A DNA stretch of 64,000 nucleotides, from contig JAMNXU010000030.1 in NCBI GenBank assembly GCA_023623175.1, positions 1 through 64,000 of the forward strand, given 5' to 3'. Source of the stretch: Bacillota bacterium (lineage in GTDB: Bacteria > Bacillota > Clostridia > Acetivibrionales > JAMNXU01). The position numbers and the translations under genes were made by a program. Position 1 is the stretch's first letter. Every line of letters begins with the position of its first letter. The notes under the pieces were generated by a model. The model saw nothing but the letters and a program-made list of their open reading frames with translations. It was not told the DNA's origin and did no database searches. Positions 1 to 49,251 of the stretch are shown here, piece after piece.

Positions 1-128
1 AACGCCGGTATATAGGATTCTTCGTTGCATCCAACATGCTGAATTAATTTAGTTTTAGGCTTTACCAAAGAAGATTTGTTCTGAAAAATCCTACAAAAAG
101 TTGACACTATCTTTCTATTTTAAATGAG

Positions 129-157
129 TTGAAATAAAACGGCTTTAGTGATATAAT
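129..157 (+). promoter_or_regulatory. candidate sigma-A promoter far upstream of oppB
   Basis: TTGAAA (129-134), a 17-base spacer and TATAAT (152-157) give a near-consensus housekeeping promoter. A transcript starting near 164 would have a leader of about 560 bases before oppB. No gene is visible in 1-729. Whether this promoter drives opp or a separate short RNA cannot be told from sequence. Confidence 0.5.
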
Positions 158-303
158 TTTCACGTTATGTAACCTACAGAAATTGGATATTATTACAACT
201 TTAGTGAATATATATAATTCCTGATGTATATATATTCATTTAACCAGATTTTACAGAGGAGTCCCGAATTCAGGCGGTTTGGGATATTGCTTATTTATTA
301 TTT

Positions 304-712
304 AAACTTATTATGTAGAGTTAATTGATAAAACTTATTTATGTAGGGTTAATTGGTACATTATAAAAATACCAACCGGAAGTATGAAAGAAATTTTGCT
401 GCAAGAGAAATTCATTAAGGTATCAGGTTAAACTTATTAAGTTAAAATTATGAAGGTTTTAAGCAAAACTTATATTGAGTTTAAGACAAGCATAAATATT
501 TATTGGGACGAGATTTAATAATTATTGAGAACATTAAGTAAATTTATAAAAGCAAAAACGCAAACATTAAGTATAAACAACAATGCGCAAACATCAAGCT
601 AAACAAATATTAAGCAGCTAAGCATACGTTAAGTTAAGTAAACATTAAACTGAGTAAACATTAAGTTAAGTAAACCATTAAGCTAATTATTATGCGAATT
701 ATTATGCAGCAA
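304..712. repeat. degenerate direct repeats in the oppB leader
   Basis: Two adjacent copies of a 27-29 base unit lie at 304-330 and 331-359, sharing AAACTTATT and TTAATTG. From about 529 to 700 a shorter motif, AAACATTAAGT, recurs many times with drift. The rest of the 1-729 spacer is AT-rich with no coding signal. The same kind of locus-specific repetition fills other spacers in this window. Confidence 0.6.
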
Positions 713-729
713 GTGTAAGGAGTGTTGAA

Positions 730-1650
730 ATGGCCGGCTATATTTTGAGGAGACTGCTTTCCGCAGCATTGACCCTGTTTTTTGTTGTAACGCTTACATT
801 TTTCCTCATGCATGCCGTACCCGGCGGTCCGTTCCTGGGAGAAAAGAACCTGCGCCCGGAAATTATTGAAAGCCTCAACAGGAAATTTGGCTTGGACAAA
901 CCAGTACATGAGCAATACATCAATTATCTGGGAAACCTTCTCAGGCTTGATCTTGGACCTTCGATGGCGCACCTGGGATTGACGGTAAATCAGATAATCG
1001 CCAGGACTTTCCCCGTTTCGGCAAAGCTCGGTGCAGTATCGATCCTGCTTGCGCTTCTTTTCGGTATTCCCATGGGAGTGCTAGCGGCGCTGAAACGCGG
1101 AAAGTGGCAGGACCATACGGTCATGTTCATAGCAACTCTGGGCATAGCCGTGCCCATGTTTGTCGTCGCCACAGTGGGAATGATTGTATTTGGCGTCAAG
1201 CTCAAATGGCTGCCCACCATAGGCCTGAAATCCGCCAGGCACTATATCCTGCCGGCCTTCGCCCTTTCTTTTTTCCCGATGTCCTTTATCGCGAGGCTGA
1301 TGAGGTCCAGCATGCTTGACGTAATAAGCCAGGACTATATAAGGACTGCGCGGGCCAAGGGCCTGAGCAGGGCTGTTGTTATATACAAGCACGCCCTCAA
1401 AAACTCGATACTGCCAATAGTGACCTATCTCGGTCCGCTGACGGCAGGCATAATGACGGGTAGTTTCGTTGTCGAGAAAGTATTTACAATACCCGGTCTC
1501 GGCAGGTATTTTGTTGAGAGCATAAACAGCAGGGACTACTCCGTTATAATGGGCGTCACGATATTTTACGCCTTCCTGCTGATAGTTATGAATTTAATTG
1601 TTGACGTGGCTTATGTATTTATCGATCCAAGAATCAAGCTCGAGAAATAG
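730..1650 (+). CDS. oppB: oligopeptide ABC transporter permease OppB
   Basis: Inner-membrane permease of a peptide (Opp/Dpp) importer, which forms the channel with OppC. The 306-residue protein has the usual N-terminal membrane helix (about 9-28), a periplasmic-side segment, and a block of helices from about 95. The cytoplasmic EAA loop that docks on the ATPases is at about 203-231 (YIRTARAKGLSR). The start is set by GTAAGGAG seven bases before ATG. It is first of a tight operon; oppC follows after 12 bases. The Opp/Dpp family is clear, but the exact substrate (peptides or, in some relatives, oligosaccharides or nickel) cannot be read from the permease. Confidence 0.93.
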   Translation: MAGYILRRLLSAALTLFFVVTLTFFLMHAVPGGPFLGEKNLRPEIIESLNRKFGLDKPVHEQYINYLGNLLRLDLGPSMAHLGLTVNQIIARTFPVSAKLGAVSILLALLFGIPMGVLAALKRGKWQDHTVMFIATLGIAVPMFVVATVGMIVFGVKLKWLPTIGLKSARHYILPAFALSFFPMSFIARLMRSSMLDVISQDYIRTARAKGLSRAVVIYKHALKNSILPIVTYLGPLTAGIMTGSFVVEKVFTIPGLGRYFVESINSRDYSVIMGVTIFYAFLLIVMNLIVDVAYVFIDPRIKLEK

Positions 1651-1662
1651 GGGTGAAAAAAG

Positions 1663-2736
1663 TTGAACCACGAAGTCGGGAAAAAAGTTGAGAATAAAAT
1701 GGAAAATAACATTGTAAATAAAGTTGCAAACAATGCCCGGAACGAGGCTGAGAAAAGAATAATAAAAATTGACACCAGCTCCTTTGAGCCTGTAGGAAAG
1801 GAAGAAAGGATCTCGACGATAAGTTCAAGAGAAAACCTCACCTATTGGAAGGATGCCTGGAAAAGGCTGAAGGCCAACAAGGTCGCCATGATTTCGCTTT
1901 ACGTTATTATATTGATCACGATACTGTCAATCGTGGTTCCGATGGTTTCACCCTATTCCTATTCACAGCAGATCAGAGGCGACGAATTCCAGCGTCCGAA
2001 CTGGAAGCACTGGTTTGGCACCGACGGCCTCGGAAGGGACCTTTTTGTAAGAGTTTTCTTCGGAACCAGGATATCCCTTGGCATCGGCCTTGTAGTCAGC
2101 ATCATGATCCTTATTATCGGTTCGTTCTATGGCGCAATATCAGGCCTGATTGGCGGCAAGGTTGACAACATCATGATGCGCCTGGTGGAAATACTGTATT
2201 CCATACCCGTGCTGCTGATGATAATCCTGATGATGGTCGTGCTCAAGGAACCCCTTCAGCAGGCATTTAACAAGTCGGCTTTCCTGAGGAGCCTTAGCAT
2301 GGTTGGTCCCGGCCTTATAAGCATATTCCTTGCCCTCAGCCTTTTCTACTGGACCGACATGGCGCGTATAGTGAGAGGGCAGGTACTGAGCCTCAAGGAA
2401 CAGGAATATGTTACGGCGGCTACTGCGCTTGGCGCGGGCAAGCTGAGAATAATACTGAAACACCTGATCCCCAACTGCATGGGGCCGATAATAGTTACCA
2501 CGACATTCCAGATTCCCAGCGCGATATTTACCGAAGCCTTCATGAGCTTCATCGGCCTGGGCGTCGACGCTCCCATGGCAAGCCTCGGTTCGCTGGCATC
2601 CGACGCGTTGAACGGCATATATTCGTTCCCTCACCTGCTGCTGTTCCCCGCAATAATGATAAGCGTAATCATACTCGCCTTCAACCTGCTCGGTGACGGT
2701 TTGCGCGATGCCCTTGATCCCAGAATGAGAAAGTAA
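1663..2736 (+). CDS. oppC: oligopeptide ABC transporter permease OppC
   Basis: Second permease of the peptide importer, 357 residues. A TTG start preceded by AGGGGTG is the best-supported start; the next ATG is 36 bases further in. Residues 1-60 are an unusual charged, Asn/Lys/Glu-rich tail in which VENKMENN and VNKVANN look like imperfect internal copies. The family core begins at about 65 with the first helix (74-93). The EAA loop is at about 251-271 (ALGAGKLRIILKHLIPN). The repetitive tail parallels the tandem-repeat drift seen in spacers of this window. oppD follows after 11 bases with a GGAG site. Confidence 0.92.
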   Translation: MNHEVGKKVENKMENNIVNKVANNARNEAEKRIIKIDTSSFEPVGKEERISTISSRENLTYWKDAWKRLKANKVAMISLYVIILITILSIVVPMVSPYSYSQQIRGDEFQRPNWKHWFGTDGLGRDLFVRVFFGTRISLGIGLVVSIMILIIGSFYGAISGLIGGKVDNIMMRLVEILYSIPVLLMIILMMVVLKEPLQQAFNKSAFLRSLSMVGPGLISIFLALSLFYWTDMARIVRGQVLSLKEQEYVTAATALGAGKLRIILKHLIPNCMGPIIVTTTFQIPSAIFTEAFMSFIGLGVDAPMASLGSLASDALNGIYSFPHLLLFPAIMISVIILAFNLLGDGLRDALDPRMRK

Positions 2737-35666: not shown

Positions 35667-35728
35667 CATGTCCTGTTCAAAATTCTAACATGACCTGTTG
35701 AAATTCTAACATGGCTGTTCAAAATTCA
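35667..35728. repeat. three-unit tandem repeat overlapping the fliT-like stop
   Basis: Units at 35667-35688, 35689-35709 and 35710-35727 share CCTGTTCAAAATTCTAA. The last reaches into the stop codon of the flagellar chaperone gene (35726-35728). The T-rich 35580-35660 stretch shows weaker AATCAGTCTGTC repetition. Confidence 0.65.
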
Positions 35729-36202
35729 ATCTTTCCTGTCAATAAAATACGATTTAGTGATAGAAGGCGTTTGTTTATAGGCATCGGTCATTTTCCTGCC
35801 CTGGTTGAACCGCCGCAGATCATCCTTTATACGTTCCATTAGTTCCTTTGCCTTTTTGCTGTTGCTTTCCTCATAGCTGTGAATCTCACTTATCAAATCC
35901 GTAACGGCTTTTATTTTTTCCCTGAGTTCGCCAAACCCGGATGCTTCCGCCTGGCCAAGGTTCACGAAATCATACTCGCCTTTCAGCTGCGTGAACAAAG
36001 TGCCGAATTCCTCGTCCAAATGATTGATCTTATCAATCAGTGCCTGCTTGTCAGCTATTATTTTCTCAAGCTGATCCAGGGCATCCGGCTTGAATGATTC
36101 TGCCTGCTGTTTTGTAAGCTCAAGAATTCCGGCAAGAAGGCTCAGCTTGTTTTCAAGAATTTCAGTCATCCGGGATAACAGCATCTGCCTGGAATTTTTC
36201 AT
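35726..36202 (-). CDS. FliT/FlgN-like flagellar export chaperone
   Basis: A 158-residue, almost entirely helical protein (long Lys/Glu/Leu heptads, 1-110) directly after fliS. In Bacillus this slot holds FliT, the chaperone of the filament cap FliD; the sequence itself is closest in style to the FlgN family of chaperones. It is last in the flagellar block, four bases after the fliS stop. Confidence 0.7.
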   Translation of the reverse strand: MKNSRQMLLSRMTEILENKLSLLAGILELTKQQAESFKPDALDQLEKIIADKQALIDKINHLDEEFGTLFTQLKGEYDFVNLGQAEASGFGELREKIKAVTDLISEIHSYEESNSKKAKELMERIKDDLRRFNQGRKMTDAYKQTPSITKSYFIDRKD

Positions 36203-36801: not shown

Positions 36802-39045
36802 TTACCAGCCGCCCGAATTATTACTGAACTGCGCCAACAGCCAGTTGCTCTGGGCGGTCATTTGGGCCAGGACCCTTTCCATTGCCGCAAACCTGTTATA
36901 ATACTCCGTCTCGCGCTCATAAAGCTTCCTCTGGAGCTCGTACATCCTGTCCTCATATTCGTCAATTTCATGATAAAGCATGTTGTCAAATTCCGTCCTG
37001 TCCCCGGGCATGCCGGCCTTTTGCAGCAAAATACCCTTGCCTCCGACGGTCCTTATATTATCCTCCAGGATGTCGAAAATCCTGAAAGCCAGGCCTTCTT
37101 CACGGTATCTTTCCATCCTTTTGTCGGAAGGCATATCAGCAGTCAGGTCGATGCTTGATTTCTTGGCAAAAAGGTTTGCCACCTCATCAGGATTATTGGC
37201 AATGGCCTCCCTCAACCTGGCCTCGTCAATTTTCAGTTTACCCTTTTCGCTGTAAGTACCTGTTGTAATACCGATATCCGTCAGTCCCAGCGACACCCCT
37301 TCCACCTTTTCAAACAGCGCGATCCTCAGGTTGTAAACAATATTCTGAAGTATGCTGTCATTCCTGAGAAGTCCCGTCTTTGCCTTCTCTTCCCATTTCT
37401 TAACCTCGTCTTCAGTGAGTTGTTCCTTTTCTTCCTGCGTCAGGGGATAAAAATTCCTGTCATATTTCTCGCTGAGCTTTGCATTTATCTTGTCAATTAC
37501 TTCGTTGTATTTTTCAACAAACTTCTTGATATTTTCAAAAATGCCGTCCACATCGAGCGATGCGGATATGGTCGCCGCAACCCTTTCTCCGGGTGCTCCT
37601 CCCGCCTTCAGCGGGCTTTCGCCGTGCAGCGTGTATGTAATTCCGTCCACCGTAAATGTGTTGCTGCTTCTTGTAAGGCTGTGGCCGTCAATGATAACCG
37701 ACGCATCGGAGCCTTTTACAAAACCTTCGGAAAGCCCCAGCTCCGAAAGCGCGCTCTCTTCAATGTTATCAGCATGACCAAAGGAAACAGTATGGCCTGA
37801 ACCGGGCTCAAGAACTACAAGCAGCCTGTTGTCAGCGTCAACTGCCACGCTCACATTGACCCCTGCAAAAGCCTCTTCAATTTTAGATTCCAGTTCGGCT
37901 GCAAGCTCGGCATGGCTTCCAAGTCCCGTGCTTAGTTCAATCTCTTTCGTAACGCCGTCTATATTAACGTTCAATTTCGTCTTTGTCAGGTTATAGTTTG
38001 CGGCACCGGTTCCCCTCGCGGATTGCAAACCAATCGCAGCAAGGAATGTGCTGCCGGTCTCGCTTATGGTGAGGTTGTTTCCTGCCCCGGTCTGCTTAGC
38101 CGTGAATTTTATGGTGTCGGTAAGCTCATTGTATTCCATCCTGACCCCGGCGGCCGAATCGTTGTTTATTGTGTTCATCATCGATGCCAGCGTCGTAGAC
38201 TTGTCAAAACTGAAACTGCGCCCGTTGATTGTCAGGTTCAGCTTGCCGTTTGCATCAAACTGTACATTCAGTTTACTTGATATAGTTTCAAGGCTCTCGT
38301 ATATATTCAGCCTGTTGCTGTTATTAAACAGGTGGAATCCGAGGTGGCTGTAAGCATCAAAAGACTCATTCGGTCCTGAATAAACCCTGACTTTTGTGAT
38401 CCCGCTTCCGGCTTTCGGCAGAATAACAAGCCTGCCCGTGCCATCTCCCGTGCTGTCGGTTACAATGATCTTGCCGCTTCCAAAGGCTGATTCAATTTTA
38501 TATTGTAAATCGTCCAGGAGTTCTTCCGCCGAATTTATGGAAGAGCTGATCGTAATCGTCTTCCTGACACCATCAATCTCAAGGCTGAAGCTTTTTCCCT
38601 TTATTGATTCTATGTTGATATCCGAAAGAACTGATCCCTCTATTTGCGCAGTAATCGGTCCGGAGCTTTCAATGGAGGCTGCTTTTGCAAGCTTGTTGAC
38701 TATTATGGAATGACTCCCGGCCAACGCGTTTACGTCGCCGCGCGCCGTTACGACAGAGCTGTCAGTAGATGTAACGTTCATTTTTTTATAATAAGCAGCA
38801 GACAAAGCATAGGATGACGGCTTTAAAACATCGAAAAACTCATCCTTCATGCTGCGCAGAAGGTTGATAATATTCCTGTATTCATCCCTTTTCCACTCAG
38901 CCAGCTGTTTTTTCCGGTACAGCTTGTCCAGAGGCATTCGGTCAATCTTCATCAGGTCTGATACTATCTGGTCCGTATCCAGTCCCGAAACCATACCGGT
39001 TATCCTGAACCTGGTATAAGCCGATGATACACTGTAAAGGTCCAC
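36802..39045 (-). CDS. fliD: flagellar filament cap protein FliD
   Basis: Hook-associated protein 2, which caps the filament and folds arriving flagellin. The 747 residues exceed the usual 450-500. The N-terminal part is typical (FRITGMVSGLDTDQIVSDLMKIDRMPLDKLYRKKQ) and so is the C-terminal coiled coil (RMYELQRKLYERETEYYNRFAAMERVLAQM). The extra length is a string of related beta-rich modules between about 150 and 490: each has an IDG-(V/Q) strand, an ELAAELESKIEEAF-type helix and a DLGL/ELGL ending. The start is right after flaG (four bases). Confidence 0.93.
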   Translation of the reverse strand: MDLYSVSSAYTRFRITGMVSGLDTDQIVSDLMKIDRMPLDKLYRKKQLAEWKRDEYRNIINLLRSMKDEFFDVLKPSSYALSAAYYKKMNVTSTDSSVVTARGDVNALAGSHSIIVNKLAKAASIESSGPITAQIEGSVLSDINIESIKGKSFSLEIDGVRKTITISSSINSAEELLDDLQYKIESAFGSGKIIVTDSTGDGTGRLVILPKAGSGITKVRVYSGPNESFDAYSHLGFHLFNNSNRLNIYESLETISSKLNVQFDANGKLNLTINGRSFSFDKSTTLASMMNTINNDSAAGVRMEYNELTDTIKFTAKQTGAGNNLTISETGSTFLAAIGLQSARGTGAANYNLTKTKLNVNIDGVTKEIELSTGLGSHAELAAELESKIEEAFAGVNVSVAVDADNRLLVVLEPGSGHTVSFGHADNIEESALSELGLSEGFVKGSDASVIIDGHSLTRSSNTFTVDGITYTLHGESPLKAGGAPGERVAATISASLDVDGIFENIKKFVEKYNEVIDKINAKLSEKYDRNFYPLTQEEKEQLTEDEVKKWEEKAKTGLLRNDSILQNIVYNLRIALFEKVEGVSLGLTDIGITTGTYSEKGKLKIDEARLREAIANNPDEVANLFAKKSSIDLTADMPSDKRMERYREEGLAFRIFDILEDNIRTVGGKGILLQKAGMPGDRTEFDNMLYHEIDEYEDRMYELQRKLYERETEYYNRFAAMERVLAQMTAQSNWLLAQFSNNSGGW

Positions 39046-42445: not shown

Positions 42446-43048
42446 TCAAACTCTTATATCAACCACTCTGCCGGCTCCTCCGCCGATGCTTCCCCTTGCG
42501 TCCTCGATGTATTGGAATTTTATCGACGGGTATTGCCTCATGTATATCCTTACAACCGACGGCCTGTAATAAATATCCACCCTGCCGGGTATGTACCTGC
42601 CTTCCACTCCCCTTGCAATTTCATCGACATTCCATTCTATTTTTAATGAACCAGTCACATCGAACCTTGGCCCGGTCTTGGGAATAAAATCTATGTTCGA
42701 TTCATACTGCGGCCACGAGTCCCTGGCGGCTATTTCAGCAATGGGATTTCCGCCGTACTCGATGGCAGCAAGCATGTCCCCGTCTGCCGCTTTCTTCTCT
42801 ATGAACTCCATCACACGCTGGTACGCCCTTTGCGAAATTTCTCTCGTCCTGTCGGCAGTATTCTTAAGCCCGGCGCTCGCACGCGCTTCGTACTGGTCTA
42901 TCAGCACCTTTGGCTTTTCGCTTTGTATACTAACCCTGGCCTTGTGGGTTTTCAGCTCTAACGTGGCATTCCGGATCCTGATTTCAAGCCTTGAGGGCGT
43001 TCTTTCTATCCCTATCAGGCCATTGATCCGGTTAATAACAAGTCCCAC
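42446..43048 (-). CDS. DUF6470 family (YviE-like) flagellar-locus protein
   Basis: A 200-residue protein in the slot between flgL and fliW, where Bacillus has yviE. It is beta-rich with repeated RIRNATLELKTHKARVSIQ-like strands, and ends in IKFQYIEDARGS then a Gly-rich tail. No enzyme motif is seen; function in flagellar assembly is implied by strict context only. A 275-base AT-rich spacer (42171-42445) with weak AAACCCATATATG-like repetition follows it. Confidence 0.75.
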   Translation of the reverse strand: MGLVINRINGLIGIERTPSRLEIRIRNATLELKTHKARVSIQSEKPKVLIDQYEARASAGLKNTADRTREISQRAYQRVMEFIEKKAADGDMLAAIEYGGNPIAEIAARDSWPQYESNIDFIPKTGPRFDVTGSLKIEWNVDEIARGVEGRYIPGRVDIYYRPSVVRIYMRQYPSIKFQYIEDARGSIGGGAGRVVDIRV

Positions 43049-43174: not shown

Positions 43175-44419
43175 TTATCTGAGGAAATCTATCAGCGAAG
43201 TCTGGATAATCCTCGCTCCGCCGGCAAGAGATGCGCGGTAGACATTTTCCTCGTTCTTAAGCCTGATAATGGTCTCAGCCATGTCCACATCCTCGTTTTC
43301 GCTCATCAGCCTGGTGAAGTTTATGAGGTCGCTGTCCAAACGGTATGCCGTAAGTTCCAGCCTGTTCTGCCGCGCGCCGATGTCGGCCCTGATCCTCAGC
43401 ACATTGTCAAGTTCCCTGTCCAAATCGCCGAGGACCGCGTTTATACCGGCAACATCACCATTATCAAGGGCCTCAATGAAGTTTTCAAAAACCTGCACAA
43501 GGCTGCCCTTGCCGTAGGTTACCGAATCCAGCCCGAGATCTGCCGCGGCACTGGACGTTCCGTCAATGGAGATTGAGGCCGAAGTGTCCGTCGAGAGCCT
43601 CGTAAACTGCAGCTTGTTGCCTATGGCAAGAACCCTGACCTCTGAATTTCCCAAAGCCGTATTTATCGAATTCTCAATCATTTTAGCCAGCTCATCGATA
43701 CCTGAATATTGCCCGGCCGCCAGCGTAACAGTTGTGGCTGCTCCGCCGTCAATGCTTATTGTAAGCTCATCATTGACTCCTGCAGTAATGGTGATTGGTC
43801 CGCCCAAATCCAGCGATGATCCCGTCAGGATACCGTTGGCTGCATATGCGCCGGCGCCGCGGTTGAAAAGGTCGCCACCCGCAATATTAATGTGAACGCT
43901 GTCGCCTATGCCTATTTCAAATATTATATTCTCAAGGTTAGAAACATTAAGAAGATAATTGCCGGTGTTCTCGTCAAGAAGCTTCTTGTCCGTATTGTAG
44001 CCGGAAAAAATGTGTCTGCCGGCATAGGTGGTATTTCCGAGGTGCAAAAGCTGCGTCCTGAGCTGCTTGATTTCTTCGGCAATTTTCTTCAGATCGTCGG
44101 GAGTATTGGTCTGGTTTGATGCCTGCACGGCCAGTTCCCTCGCCCTGTGCACCACATCGCCAATATTGGCCAGCGCATCCTCGGTAATATCGAGCCAGGA
44201 CTGGGCATCCTTTACATTGCGCTTGTATTGCTCAACTTCAGCAACATCGGTCCTGAGTTTCAGCGCCCTTGCAGCCACGACCGGGTCATCGGAAGGCACG
44301 GTTATTTTTTTGCCTGTGGCCAGCTGATCCTGGTAGCGGCTCATCCTGACAAGGTTCCTTCCGATATTGTTGATCATGTTATTTATGAGCATGTTGTTCG
44401 TAATGCGCATCGCCGTCAC
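43175..44419 (-). CDS. flgL: flagellar hook-filament junction protein FlgL
   Basis: Hook-associated protein 3, 414 residues, longer than the usual 300. The ends are typical (MRITNNMLINNMINNIGRNL and ETIIRLKNEENVYRASLAGGARIIQTSLIDFL, the latter split by about 382-413). The extra part (about 195-300) is an inserted beta module with SIDGGAATTVTLAAGQ, DELAKMIENSINTAL and AAADLGLDS, which resembles the modules in FliD. Confidence 0.93.
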   Translation of the reverse strand: MTAMRITNNMLINNMINNIGRNLVRMSRYQDQLATGKKITVPSDDPVVAARALKLRTDVAEVEQYKRNVKDAQSWLDITEDALANIGDVVHRARELAVQASNQTNTPDDLKKIAEEIKQLRTQLLHLGNTTYAGRHIFSGYNTDKKLLDENTGNYLLNVSNLENIIFEIGIGDSVHINIAGGDLFNRGAGAYAANGILTGSSLDLGGPITITAGVNDELTISIDGGAATTVTLAAGQYSGIDELAKMIENSINTALGNSEVRVLAIGNKLQFTRLSTDTSASISIDGTSSAAADLGLDSVTYGKGSLVQVFENFIEALDNGDVAGINAVLGDLDRELDNVLRIRADIGARQNRLELTAYRLDSDLINFTRLMSENEDVDMAETIIRLKNEENVYRASLAGGARIIQTSLIDFLR

Positions 44420-44630: not shown

Positions 44631-46220
44631 TTACAATCCGAGCCTGTTTATCAGCGTATCGTAGACCTCCACCATGACGTTGATCATCTTTGCTGCGGCA
44701 TTGTATGCATACTGGTACTTGACAAGATTTGCGAGCTCCTCATCTATCGACACACCAGAAACCGAAAGCCTTCGGTTCTCCACCTGTTTTACAACAATCT
44801 CCTGGTTATCGCAGATTCTCATTGCCTGCTGGGAATCAATGCCGAGCGTTGTAACCAGGGACTTCATGAAATCCTCGGGAGCACCTTCAAGGAACATATA
44901 CTTATTATGCCTCAGGGACAGGAGCCTGTTCAGGTTCTCGATGTTTCCCGCCTCCCCGCCGGGTCCCGCCGCGGCAATGGTATTGTAATCGTTCATTATA
45001 TCAAAACTCACGGCGAAGTTCTTCGCCGTCATGGCTTCATACCGCTCCGAAACCTGGGCCATCCCCGTCGCCCCGTTTATGAACTCGGCGCTGGACAGCG
45101 GAACATCGTCCGTTCCAAGTATCGTGAAAAACCGGATGCCCGTGCTTCCCCTGAGACCCAGGCCGTCGGCGTGGCCGTCAATATCGTCTATAACTCCGTC
45201 GCCGTCTATATCTATGTATCCTTCATTAAACGCCTTTGCCAGCGTCCTTACAAACTCGTTCAATTTCCTCTGGTAATAAGCTATGCCCTTGTACAACGGG
45301 GACCCGTTAAGGCCGTCGTTTCCGTCCCTAACGTCAAGGTATCCCTTGAGCTCTCCTCCCCTGATATCAAGGCTGTTGCCGTCCTCCCACCGTATGTCAT
45401 AGAGGTTGTCCACATCCTCGGGATTGAGCTTTGTCTGCCTGTGCACGGCTTCAAGCTTTGTCAGGTCGAAATGGTCAATAAAGGCCTTTCCGCTGATTGT
45501 TATGACAAAATGCCTGTCGTCCGCCCCGTTGGGAAGCTTGCCCACGACTACTTCATTGGCCTCAATGTTGATCAGCTTTGACAGCTTGTCCACGAGCAAC
45601 GTTCTCTGGTCCCTGAGGTCATTGGCCGTATTCCCGTCCAGCTCGGCAATGTATATCTGCCGGTTCAACTGCTGTATCTGGGCGCCAAGCGAATTTATTT
45701 CAGCAACCTTTGTATAAATCCGGTTGTTCAAATCCGACTGAAGTTTTTCAAGATGGGCTGCCGTACTGTTGAAATATTTGGCCAGCGTCACACCTTTTTC
45801 CCTGACAAGGGATCTTACGGCCGGGCTGGCGGGGTCCTTGGCCAGCTCCTGGAGCGCGCTGAAAAATTCATTCATAATTGTGGTAAAACCGCTGCCCGAC
45901 GGCTCATTGAACACGGCTTCCATGTCGGCCAGCACAATCCTTTTCGCGTCCCACTCTCCGTAAGTTACGGCCTCGCTCCAGTACTTGAAATCCAGGTATT
46001 CATCCCTGACCCTCTTGACGGCAATAACTTCGGATCCCGTGCCAAGCATGCCCGTCCCGTTGCTCAGCGGTATGGGCCTCGACGCCACCTGCTCGGCAAC
46101 CTGCCGTGAATATCCCGGTGTGTTCACATTATTTAAATTATGGTTAATAATATCGAGATTTCTCTGGGCTGAATAAAGACCCCTGAGCGCGACATTAAGT
46201 CCGAAAAATCCTTCTCTCAT
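44631..46220 (-). CDS. flgK: flagellar hook-associated protein FlgK (copy 2)
   Basis: Hook-associated protein 1, 529 residues, typical ends: GLNVALRGLYSAQRNLDIINHN with NNVNTPGYSRQ, and EELANLVKYQYAYNAAAKMINVM near the C-terminus. Within the central loop after LNGSPLYKG there is a segment DIDGDGVIDD (337-346) that fits the Ca2+ loop pattern D-x-D-x-D-G-x-I-D. It is preceded by a larger flgK copy after seven bases, so the two are a tandem pair. Confidence 0.93.
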   Translation of the reverse strand: MREGFFGLNVALRGLYSAQRNLDIINHNLNNVNTPGYSRQVAEQVASRPIPLSNGTGMLGTGSEVIAVKRVRDEYLDFKYWSEAVTYGEWDAKRIVLADMEAVFNEPSGSGFTTIMNEFFSALQELAKDPASPAVRSLVREKGVTLAKYFNSTAAHLEKLQSDLNNRIYTKVAEINSLGAQIQQLNRQIYIAELDGNTANDLRDQRTLLVDKLSKLINIEANEVVVGKLPNGADDRHFVITISGKAFIDHFDLTKLEAVHRQTKLNPEDVDNLYDIRWEDGNSLDIRGGELKGYLDVRDGNDGLNGSPLYKGIAYYQRKLNEFVRTLAKAFNEGYIDIDGDGVIDDIDGHADGLGLRGSTGIRFFTILGTDDVPLSSAEFINGATGMAQVSERYEAMTAKNFAVSFDIMNDYNTIAAAGPGGEAGNIENLNRLLSLRHNKYMFLEGAPEDFMKSLVTTLGIDSQQAMRICDNQEIVVKQVENRRLSVSGVSIDEELANLVKYQYAYNAAAKMINVMVEVYDTLINRLGL

Positions 46221-46227
46221 GCTTCAA

Positions 46228-48288
46228 TCACCTGCCTGAAAGTCCCGTTCTCAAGATAACGGTTTCCATCATTTCGTCCAGAACGTTCAATACCCTTGCG
46301 GCAGCATCGTAGGCAAACTTATACTTCATCATGCTGGAAAGTTCCTCGTCCATTGAAACGCCCATGATGGCCTGTCGCTGGTTGTCAGCCGATTCCACGA
46401 GTTTCAGCTGGTTAGCCGCAATCCTGTCGGCTTCCATGCCCTGGGTGCCAATGCTCAATATGATCGACTGGTAATACTCATCCATGCTGACAATGCCGGT
46501 CAAATCTGTCATAAGCGGAACATGCCTGAGATTGGCAATTTCACGCGCAATGGTGTTGTCCCCGCTCGCATCCCTTGCGGATGCCACTATGTTATTCAGA
46601 TCCAGGAGGTTGTCATTGAGCTTTATATTGCCAATGGACATGGGATAGGCCGGATCGATCACCACGAAGAAATCCTCTCCGTCAAGGCCGTTGAGCGTCT
46701 TGCCGCTCCTGTGCAGGTAATTGACCTCGCGCGCCAGGATATTGACGAGCGCATTGAGCTTTTTGATAATGTCCGGAAGTATATTTCCTGAATCGGGAAC
46801 CCTGCTCATCTCGCCGTTGACAATGTCGAGCGCAATCCTCGCCATCACATCACCGAATTCTGAAGAATCCAGATCATAGATCCTGCCTCCGAGAACCGCG
46901 GAAATGCTCTGCCACCCGGCGATTTCGCCCTGGGAAGCATCTCCCGTGCTGAAATATTTCCTGTTCGTAATAACCGACGTTGTCATATCCAGGCTGCCAA
47001 GCCTGTTCACAATTTCCCTGATACGCTCGCTGTCGGCTGCGGCCGTCCCGTCTCCGTCAATACTTTCATCGGTAAACACGAGGGCATAACGGCCGGCTCC
47101 CTGCCTGAAATTCAGGGATTCCAGCGCCGATATCGCTTCGTCCATGTTAAGGTTGTTGGTTCCGGTTTCACTGAGAGCGTTGAGCGCATTAATGAAATCG
47201 GCCACATTCGTAAAAGACTGGGCCGTAGCCGACGGACCGCCGTATGTTACCAGGTTCAGCACAAAATCCGAACCCATTACGTCAATTTCATCCAGGAAAC
47301 TGGCTATTTCAGACTTTATCCTGTCAAGATATGCGCCCGATCCGGAAGATACGTCTATCACGAAAGTAACATCGGTTTTGCTGTACGGTGAGCCGTTTTC
47401 GGGGCTTCCCTTGGCTCCGAAAACCTCTCCCCTTGACTCGAGCAATCCCTTGAGAATGCCGCTTTTTACGGGCACTTCAATTTCCGTGCCTTCAAGCTTG
47501 GGAACCACAAAAATACCGCCGGCGTTTGCCTCGGCCGCGTACAGGCTGGTCTGCTGACCCTTCGTCACAAGGAAATATCCCCCGAGGGTTATATCAACCT
47601 GCCCGTCCTGCATTTCAACGATTTGCACGTCGGCAAGGCGCGTAAGCCTGTCCAGCAGTAAATTCCTGCGGTCGCGGAGGTCATTGGCCCTGTCGCCGGT
47701 AACCTCCATTTTCATTATCTCAACGTTTAATTTCGCAATTTCCGAAGTAATTTGGTTTATCTCGTCAATCCTCACGCGGATTTCCGAGTCCAAATCCTTT
47801 TGCATTTTTTCTAACTGGCTTCCCATGTGATTCAGATGGTGGACCAGCGCTTCAGCCCTCTGCCTGACCAATGCCCTTACGGTCAGGCTGTCGGGCTCCT
47901 TGGAAAGCTCCTGCCATGCGTCCCAGAACTGGTTAAGCACATTTTGCAGGCCTGCCTGCAAAGGCTCGCCCAAAATCGCCTGGATATCCTGCAGGGTTCT
48001 CGAACGGGTCTCCCAGTAACCGAGATTCGTGCTCTCGCTCCTGTAAATGTTGTCGAGGAACATGTGCCTTATCTGCCGGATCTGCTGAATGTCAGCCCCG
48101 AGCCCAATCTGGTACATTCCGTACCTGCTGTAGGAGGTTTGCAGGGGACCGTTGGTGGCAATGAGCTGCTGGCGCACATATCCCGGTGTGTTTACATTGG
48201 AAATATTGTGGCCTGTAACATACAGGCCGCGTTCATTGACTGTAAGTCCTGATCTTGCTATTTCATAGCTGCCAAAGCCAACCGCCAT
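46228..48288 (-). CDS. FlgK paralogue with inserted von Willebrand A domain
   Basis: A 686-residue hook-associated protein. Residues 1-300 and 500-686 are FlgK: NISNVNTPGYVRQQL, IGLGADIQQIRQ, DEELSSMMKYKFAYDAAARVLNVL. Between them (about 305-495) sits a vWA domain: TDVTFVIDVSSGSG with Asp312 of a MIDAS-like DxS (normally DxSxS; here DVSSGS), TGTNNLNMDEAI (Thr377) and YALVFTDESIDGDG (Asp407), plus the helices between. The insertion point follows NGSPYSK, the same loop as NGSPLYKG in the neighbouring FlgK. GGAGGT is eight bases before ATG. Such surface vWA domains bind proteins or metals, so an adhesive hook-filament junction is possible. Confidence 0.88.
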   Translation of the reverse strand: MAVGFGSYEIARSGLTVNERGLYVTGHNISNVNTPGYVRQQLIATNGPLQTSYSRYGMYQIGLGADIQQIRQIRHMFLDNIYRSESTNLGYWETRSRTLQDIQAILGEPLQAGLQNVLNQFWDAWQELSKEPDSLTVRALVRQRAEALVHHLNHMGSQLEKMQKDLDSEIRVRIDEINQITSEIAKLNVEIMKMEVTGDRANDLRDRRNLLLDRLTRLADVQIVEMQDGQVDITLGGYFLVTKGQQTSLYAAEANAGGIFVVPKLEGTEIEVPVKSGILKGLLESRGEVFGAKGSPENGSPYSKTDVTFVIDVSSGSGAYLDRIKSEIASFLDEIDVMGSDFVLNLVTYGGPSATAQSFTNVADFINALNALSETGTNNLNMDEAISALESLNFRQGAGRYALVFTDESIDGDGTAAADSERIREIVNRLGSLDMTTSVITNRKYFSTGDASQGEIAGWQSISAVLGGRIYDLDSSEFGDVMARIALDIVNGEMSRVPDSGNILPDIIKKLNALVNILAREVNYLHRSGKTLNGLDGEDFFVVIDPAYPMSIGNIKLNDNLLDLNNIVASARDASGDNTIAREIANLRHVPLMTDLTGIVSMDEYYQSIILSIGTQGMEADRIAANQLKLVESADNQRQAIMGVSMDEELSSMMKYKFAYDAAARVLNVLDEMMETVILRTGLSGR

Positions 48289-48407: not shown

Positions 48408-48908
48408 TCAAAGCTTGATATCCAGCAGGCTTCTTTTACGGGTCGAATCCGGCGTTCCGCTGCTTCCGTAATTAATTCCACCGCTGTTGTCTTCTGTAAG
48501 CAGGTTGATGGAAAACTCTATGAAGTCCAGCGAATTCTTTATCAGCCGCGAATTCAGCTCATTTGAATTTTTCAGATCGTTGACGATGCCCGTCATTTCC
48601 TGCTGGTAATTGCGCAGCTCCTCGGCCTGCCTGCCTTCGACCTTCTCAACCAGGTAACTGATATTAATCTCCGAAGGCTCAACCTGCATTTCCGAGGCCA
48701 GTTTTTCAATCAGCTCCTCGCGGGTATTGCCTAGTTTCCCGAGCCGCACTACAATTGACTGCTCCAGCTTAGTAACATTCTCCAGTTCGGTAACCTTTCC
48801 TTCCACAATCAACCTGGTCTTTTGCCTGGAGAGATCTCTAAGGTAGGAATACAATTCCGACTCCTGGTGCAGGACCCTTAACAAATCATCCACTGCCTGG
48901 CTGTTCAT
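48408..48908 (-). CDS. flgN: flagellar export chaperone FlgN
   Basis: Chaperone for the hook-associated proteins FlgK and FlgL, 166 residues from the ATG ending at 48908 (six bases after GGTGGTG). The upstream hydrophobic codons in the frame are ignored as non-native. Helical throughout, with LLRVLHQESELYSYLRDLSRQK at the start and a final NSLDFIEFSINLL, typical of the family. It lies between flgM and the two flgK genes as in Bacillus. Confidence 0.88.
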   Translation of the reverse strand: MNSQAVDDLLRVLHQESELYSYLRDLSRQKTRLIVEGKVTELENVTKLEQSIVVRLGKLGNTREELIEKLASEMQVEPSEINISYLVEKVEGRQAEELRNYQQEMTGIVNDLKNSNELNSRLIKNSLDFIEFSINLLTEDNSGGINYGSSGTPDSTRKRSLLDIKL

Positions 48909-48966
48909 GATAAACACCACCAAAATACCAATCAAATTTCAGCTCTTCAGCCATATATCCATAACA

Positions 48967-49251
48967 TCAGACTTTTTTGTCCAATACAGACCTGATGATA
49001 CTGTCAGCCACATCCCTGCCGCTTACGTTATAAGTACCTGAACCATACTTTTCAGCAAGTATGTCCACCTTATCCTTCCGTATATCGGGAACGTCTTTCA
49101 GGGCCTTCAGCGCAACCTGGAGGTCCTTTGCCTGGCCGGAAATAGAAACCACATCCTTCTTCGAAGCGGCTGTCGTCTTTTGGATCTTGTTAACTGCCTT
49201 CTGCTTGCCGTCTATACCGAATATCTTCGGTAAATCTCCCCAAATCTTCAT
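48967..49251 (-). CDS. flgM: anti-sigma-28 factor FlgM
   Basis: Holds the flagellar sigma factor inactive until the hook is finished, then is exported. 94 residues, with the C-terminal sigma-binding part visible (RKDKVDILAEKYGSGTYNVSGRDVADSII, about 58-87). ATG follows AGAGGGGTATGT. It has its own sigma-28 promoter. Confidence 0.9.
   Translation of the reverse strand: MKIWGDLPKIFGIDGKQKAVNKIQKTTAASKKDVVSISGQAKDLQVALKALKDVPDIRKDKVDILAEKYGSGTYNVSGRDVADSIIRSVLDKKV

Follow-up and report, generated by a model that had tools for sequence, protein, structure and literature searches.

The window, by which we mean the whole stretch of DNA that was analysed (64,000 nucleotides), contains the gene flgK1, which codes for a FlgK paralogue interrupted by a von Willebrand A (vWA) domain. 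Its neighbours are flgM, flgN, flgK2, flgL, a DUF6470 gene and fliW, so that the surroundings represent an ordinary late flagellar locus. The features are:

48967..49251, (-), flgM, anti-sigma-28 (PF04316, 1.8e-16)
48408..48935, (-), flgN, FlgK/FlgL export chaperone family (PF05130, 1.8e-30)
46228..48288, (-), flgK1, 686-aa FlgK paralogue with vWA insert (TIGR02492, 3.2e-100; ORF intact)
47428..48288, (-), FlgK1 N-terminal half (D0, D1a, D1b), residues 1-287 (Pfam FlgK_D1 99-289; model)
47380..47433, (-), entry stalk RGEVFGAKGSPENGSPYS, residues 286-303, after helix 278-286 (conserved in relatives)
46804..47379, (-), vWA domain of FlgK1, residues 304-495 (PF00092, model, Foldseek and VIA-align)
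47341..47355, (-), MIDAS motif 1, DVSSG 312-316 (DxSxG, Gly replacing Ser/Thr; motif alignment)
47152..47166, (-), candidate MIDAS motif 2, TGTNN 375-379 (motif alignment; Thr not conserved, alignment uncertain)
47062..47076, (-), MIDAS motif 3, FTDES 405-409 (motif alignment; Asp407 kept in 7/52)
46780..46803, (-), exit stalk RVPDSGNI, residues 496-503 (model and comparison of relatives)
46231..46779, (-), FlgK1 C-terminal half (helix alpha7, minimal D2 region, D1, D0), residues 504-686 (Pfam Flg_bbr_C; model)
44631..46220, (-), flgK2, second FlgK, without vWA (TIGR02492, 5.9e-99)
43175..44419, (-), flgL (TIGR02550, 8.6e-91)

The DUF6470 gene (42446-43048, minus strand) is located between flgL and fliW. 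FliD of the window (36802-39045, minus strand) has 747 amino acids, with ~320 residues between FliD_N and FliD_C, and is above the usual size; a gene for a second FlgN-family chaperone (35726-36202, minus strand) adjoins fliS and fliD. Apart from this gene, a Pfam VWA search of the whole genome gave only two vWA stretches, which share a single 1053-aa frame on a different contig.

The flgK1 reading frame is open throughout and its terminal regions are normal. FlgK1 matches the FlgK equivalog TIGR02492 over its N- and C-terminal regions with 336.5 bits (cut-off 170.75; E 3.2e-100), and a Pfam scan of the protein returned FlgK and VWA models and nothing else, among them FlgK_D1 (2.8e-51) and VWA PF00092 at residues 306-429 (E 9.5e-9, 36.1 bits, cut-off 23.8). 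In an AlphaFold model for which 63 FlgK1 sequences served as input (mean pLDDT 79.7), a series of helices ending with 278-286 is followed by a domain of alternating strands and helices at 304-495 and a further helix at 504-527. Residues 75-640 of this model superimpose on Salmonella FlgK (2d4y) with Z 33.9 (VIA-align; 336 residues, rmsd 1.8), a match from which the D1a/D1b fold of FlgK is assigned to FlgK1. Residues 302-494 match TFIIH p44 with Z 19.2 (VIA-align; 171 residues, rmsd 2.5) and other vWA domains with Z about 19, and the best-ranked bacterial vWA in Foldseek is the LapA vWFA (9no5; E 2.9e-7, 18% identity). A Rossmann-like vWA fold of the insert is thus supported by sequence profile and predicted model. 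An earlier note on this DNA had placed a vWA domain at 46800-47376, between two complete halves of a 686-residue FlgK, and had expected the match over residues 305-495; both the intact FlgK frame and the domain are found as claimed, and the borders agree within about a codon.

The position of the insert can be defined precisely. NGSPYSK, the loop that the earlier note had named from the sequence, comprises residues 298-304 of FlgK1, and FlgK2 indeed has NGSPLYKG at the equivalent loop. In C. jejuni FlgK, the helices alpha6 (291-299) and alpha7 (314-339) are separated by an inserted Gly300-Gly313 of 14 residues, whereas in the FlgK proteins of Salmonella and Burkholderia the helix runs through without interruption (PMC5691160). 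The FlgK1 profile pairs GLLESRGE-stalk-ENG with LDLRGRNYSKSEGKYEDG of C. jejuni FlgK, which corresponds to the published Gly300-Gly313, and the vWA has thus been placed, directly after D1b, at a helix break that is also known from another FlgK. A large D2 is absent from FlgK1. The outer surface of the modelled 11-subunit C. jejuni FlgK ring is formed by D1b and D2 (PMC5691160), and 11 FlgK molecules are present in the hook-filament junction determined by cryo-EM (PMC12221982); by analogy, we infer that the vWA is displayed outward.

To see how widespread this architecture is, a search suggested in the earlier note, FlgK proteins of other Clostridia were compared, with 58 genomes taken from the order of Acetivibrio and Ruminiclostridium, which includes R. 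papyrosolvens, R. sufflavum, A. mesophilus, A. straminisolvens and A. alkalicellulosi. A FlgK1 match was present in 54 of the 58 genomes. The flgK1-flgK2 tandem is found throughout the order, flgK2 being the gene after flgK1 wherever the next gene was readable, and FlgK1 and FlgK2 form separate, fully supported clades. An insert of 155-221 residues is present in 35 of the 47 fully readable FlgK1 proteins of the order and absent from 12. Elsewhere in the class, a vWA occupies the same FlgK1 site in the families f23 (14 read) and f40 (3 read), so that the insertion site is shared by 51 relatives in total. The FlgK1 proteins of f38 retain the entry stalk (RGDVAGYKGSxENGS) and continue with a tail of ~20-30 residues instead of a vWA; in f32, f10, f11 and f37, the helix at the site is short or continuous, and the continuous-helix form of f10, f11 and f13 could, on the tree, be either ancestral or secondary. 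FlgK2 frames of 829-886 aa turned out to be upstream frame extensions and were rejected as inserts. The FlgK2 of one f40 genome (G113, locus L142, 5002-7110, minus strand) is also interrupted at the alpha6/alpha7 break, by an insert of domain size that differs from the vWA and to which a Pfam scan gave no match. Phage homologues of the vWA insert were also rejected, as the matches in the phage collection were partial FlgK hits on phage-labelled contigs.

The domain has been lost repeatedly. In the Acetivibrio family, FlgK1 proteins without vWA are nested among vWA-bearing ones, which corresponds to at least two losses (G003 beside G002; G005 and G006 inside G008/G004) with support of 100/99 to 100/100 at the respective forks, and a third loss has probably occurred in genus g4. 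Where it is present, the domain diverges rapidly: mean pairwise identity among insert-bearing FlgK1 proteins is 29% for the insert and 62% for D1a. In close pairs with unsaturated dS, dN/dS of the insert is mostly 0.10-0.20, reaching 0.29-0.44 in close pairs of f40, and dN/dS of the core in these pairs is mostly 0.04-0.11; dN of the insert is mostly 2-4 times that of the core. Such ratios indicate purifying selection on the insert, and the domain is therefore maintained, yet fast-changing. Conservation is highest in the first strand and the stalk; most of the loops and helices vary.

The earlier note had described DVSSGS (312), TGTNN (375) and YALVFTDES as being in the right order for a MIDAS metal site, with a Gly in the first motif. 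The three motifs are present in this order (FTDES at 405), and with DxSxG, Asp407 and possibly Thr377 as ligands, the window's vWA could still bind a metal. Conservation of the site is a different matter. Asp312 is kept in 42 of the 52 inserts and lost in 10, Ser314 is kept in 34, and the third-motif aspartate is found in just those 7 listed above, with Asn (23) and Gly (13) as the commonest replacements; DxSxT together with the third-motif Asp occurs in only three relatives, all of f23. The complete and conserved ligand set (DxSxS, Thr and Asp) is therefore not a trait of the family. It appears, with less certainty, that most members do not use a complete MIDAS site and that most of the site persists in the window's copy and in a few relatives. 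The fold is kept without the site in L105, an insert of a different genome that lacks it: modelled alone, this insert is still a vWA (pLDDT 88, Z about 17). Of the earlier note's reading, the vWA fold, the exact loop, the intact FlgK on either side and the occurrence in other Clostridia are supported, but a metal-bridged ligand is weakened as a general explanation, since the site is incomplete in most relatives and the fold is kept without it. Ten metal-site-less inserts form a group in the insert tree that is one clade in 0% of the core-tree bootstraps; an AU test did not reject this group as one clade in the core tree (p 0.37), and module swapping between lineages is therefore not claimed.

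With its constant insertion site, its repeated loss and its mostly incomplete metal site, the domain looks less like a classical adhesin that depends on metal than like an attachment that faces outward and can be removed. The reading that we prefer, with confidence evenly balanced between belief and doubt, is that the vWA of FlgK1, within an ancient FlgK1-FlgK2 pair, faces outward from the hook-filament junction as a protein-binding module that the cell can dispense with. FlgK1 would be a subunit of this junction, a placement that follows from its identity as a FlgK, and one partner of the ancient tandem pair, with the vWA inserted on a short glycine-rich stalk at the alpha6/alpha7 break of D1, just after D1b. 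It would be exported with its FlgN chaperone and assemble into the junction ring, where the vWA, as judged from C. jejuni and Salmonella, would be held outside the ring next to D1b, up to 11 copies giving rise to a collar. Less certain than this placement are the dispensable protein-binding function and its partner, which may change among lineages and could be a ligand outside the cell, a surface or a second cell, or a flagellar component specific to the lineage. Adhesion and mechanosensing, which the earlier note had suggested, are possible functions.

The best structural matches of the insert in VIA-align include the vWA scaffolds p44 and Rpn10. The vWA domains of TFIIH p44 and Rpn10 are protein-protein platforms without MIDAS metal, and the vWA of FlgK1 might likewise be a metal-independent platform that packs on an adjacent FlgK1, FlgK2, FlgE or FlgL and stiffens or adapts the junction. 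This is a serious though somewhat improbable alternative. In its favour, D2 of C. jejuni FlgK has been modelled touching the extra domains of FlgE (PMC5691160), and FlgL proteins with extra domains (414-568 aa, and 832 in one f40 genome, compared to about 305 usually) were found, in the window and in related loci, only in genomes with a vWA-bearing FlgK1 (Fisher p 0.046, from a hand tally in which kinship is ignored). However, flgK1, flgK2 and flgL stayed in place through several losses of the vWA, and a mechanical role that is essential is difficult to reconcile with such repeated loss. The FlgE frame has about 440-530 aa with or without the vWA; its length does not track the presence of the domain, and a function as a spacer for a larger hook protein was rejected.

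Fast change and loss would also fit a mostly neutral decoration. That the insert is largely neutral, tolerated and simply inherited by descent is nevertheless unlikely: the decay of the metal site agrees with it as well, but dN/dS values mostly of 0.1-0.2, a fold that persists despite low identity and the survival of the domain over divergence at class level speak against it. A sensor of force or surface contact, in which the junction vWA reports contact or load by analogy with PilY1, is very improbable: the vWA of this pilus-tip protein is needed for force-dependent surface sensing (PMC8806160) and FlgK has been proposed to buffer the junction elastically (PMC12221982), but the window's FlgK1 contains no Cys, whereas PilY1 sensing needs a vWA Cys, it lacks the PilY1 C-terminal domain in the Pfam scan, no signalling route from FlgK to the cell is known, and the vWA is dispensable in relatives.

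A profile of the insert was also run against 398 genomes of the phylum. The matches were mostly ordinary secreted vWA proteins, plus two further flagellar proteins. One (L149, genome G478, ORF about 1033-2496, plus strand) is a flagellin with the order Flagellin_N, VWA, Flagellin_C, the vWA residing in the variable region; the other (L150, genome G740, ORF about 109-2556, plus strand) is a FlgK with a vWA after D1, at a site that differs from that of FlgK1. Both have an intact-looking first MIDAS motif, and in the tree the vWA domain of each is most closely related to that of the other. Conservation at family level was rejected for both cases, each being a singleton among the sampled genomes of its own order. 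Tentatively, and with more doubt than the module proposed above, one might suppose that a junction collar of ~11 vWA domains in many Clostridia binds changing external ligands, and that flagellar axial proteins acquired vWA domains on at least three occasions (the FlgK alpha6/alpha7 break, FlgK after D1 and the flagellin variable region). If this were true, the junction, and not the filament alone, would serve as a surface for adhesion or recognition.

The hook-filament junction is usually viewed as a passive mechanical adaptor, and here a binding-type domain is present at one exact loop of it, in a large part of one Clostridia order including cellulose degraders. The alpha6/alpha7 break is thereby identified as a site at which a whole domain can be accommodated in FlgK. 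Since orthologues without vWA and forms with the stalk alone occur naturally, what an extra domain does at the junction can be tested in cultured species, e.g. of Ruminiclostridium.

Foreign domains in flagellar proteins are not new as such. Domains in the hypervariable region of flagellin are known, e.g. in flagellinolysin (PMC5595980), and we found no report in the open-access literature of a vWA in FlgK, of tandem FlgK or of a domain insertion in FlgK. Flagellinolysin resembles FlgK1 in having a foreign globular domain inside an exported flagellar axial protein, but it combines flagellin with a metallopeptidase and is present in thousands of copies, whereas FlgK1 combines FlgK with a vWA and is expected in about 11; no HExxH motif was found in any of the 52 inserts. 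PilY1 likewise carries a vWA on a motility fibre, but on the tip of the type IV pilus, a different organelle, and differs by its C-terminal domain and its Cys. LapA of Pseudomonas fluorescens has a similar vWA fold, but is a giant, non-flagellar surface adhesin. The closest known systems are the FlgK (HAP1) proteins of Salmonella and C. jejuni (2d4y, 9go6, 5xbj, 9gsx), which have D0, D1a and D1b in common with FlgK1 and, in C. jejuni, Gly300-Gly313 at the same alpha6/alpha7 break. The window differs from these systems by two FlgK genes in tandem, and while the known extra domains D2 and D3 of FlgK follow alpha7, the extra domain of FlgK1 is a vWA at the alpha6/alpha7 break, combined with a minimal D2.
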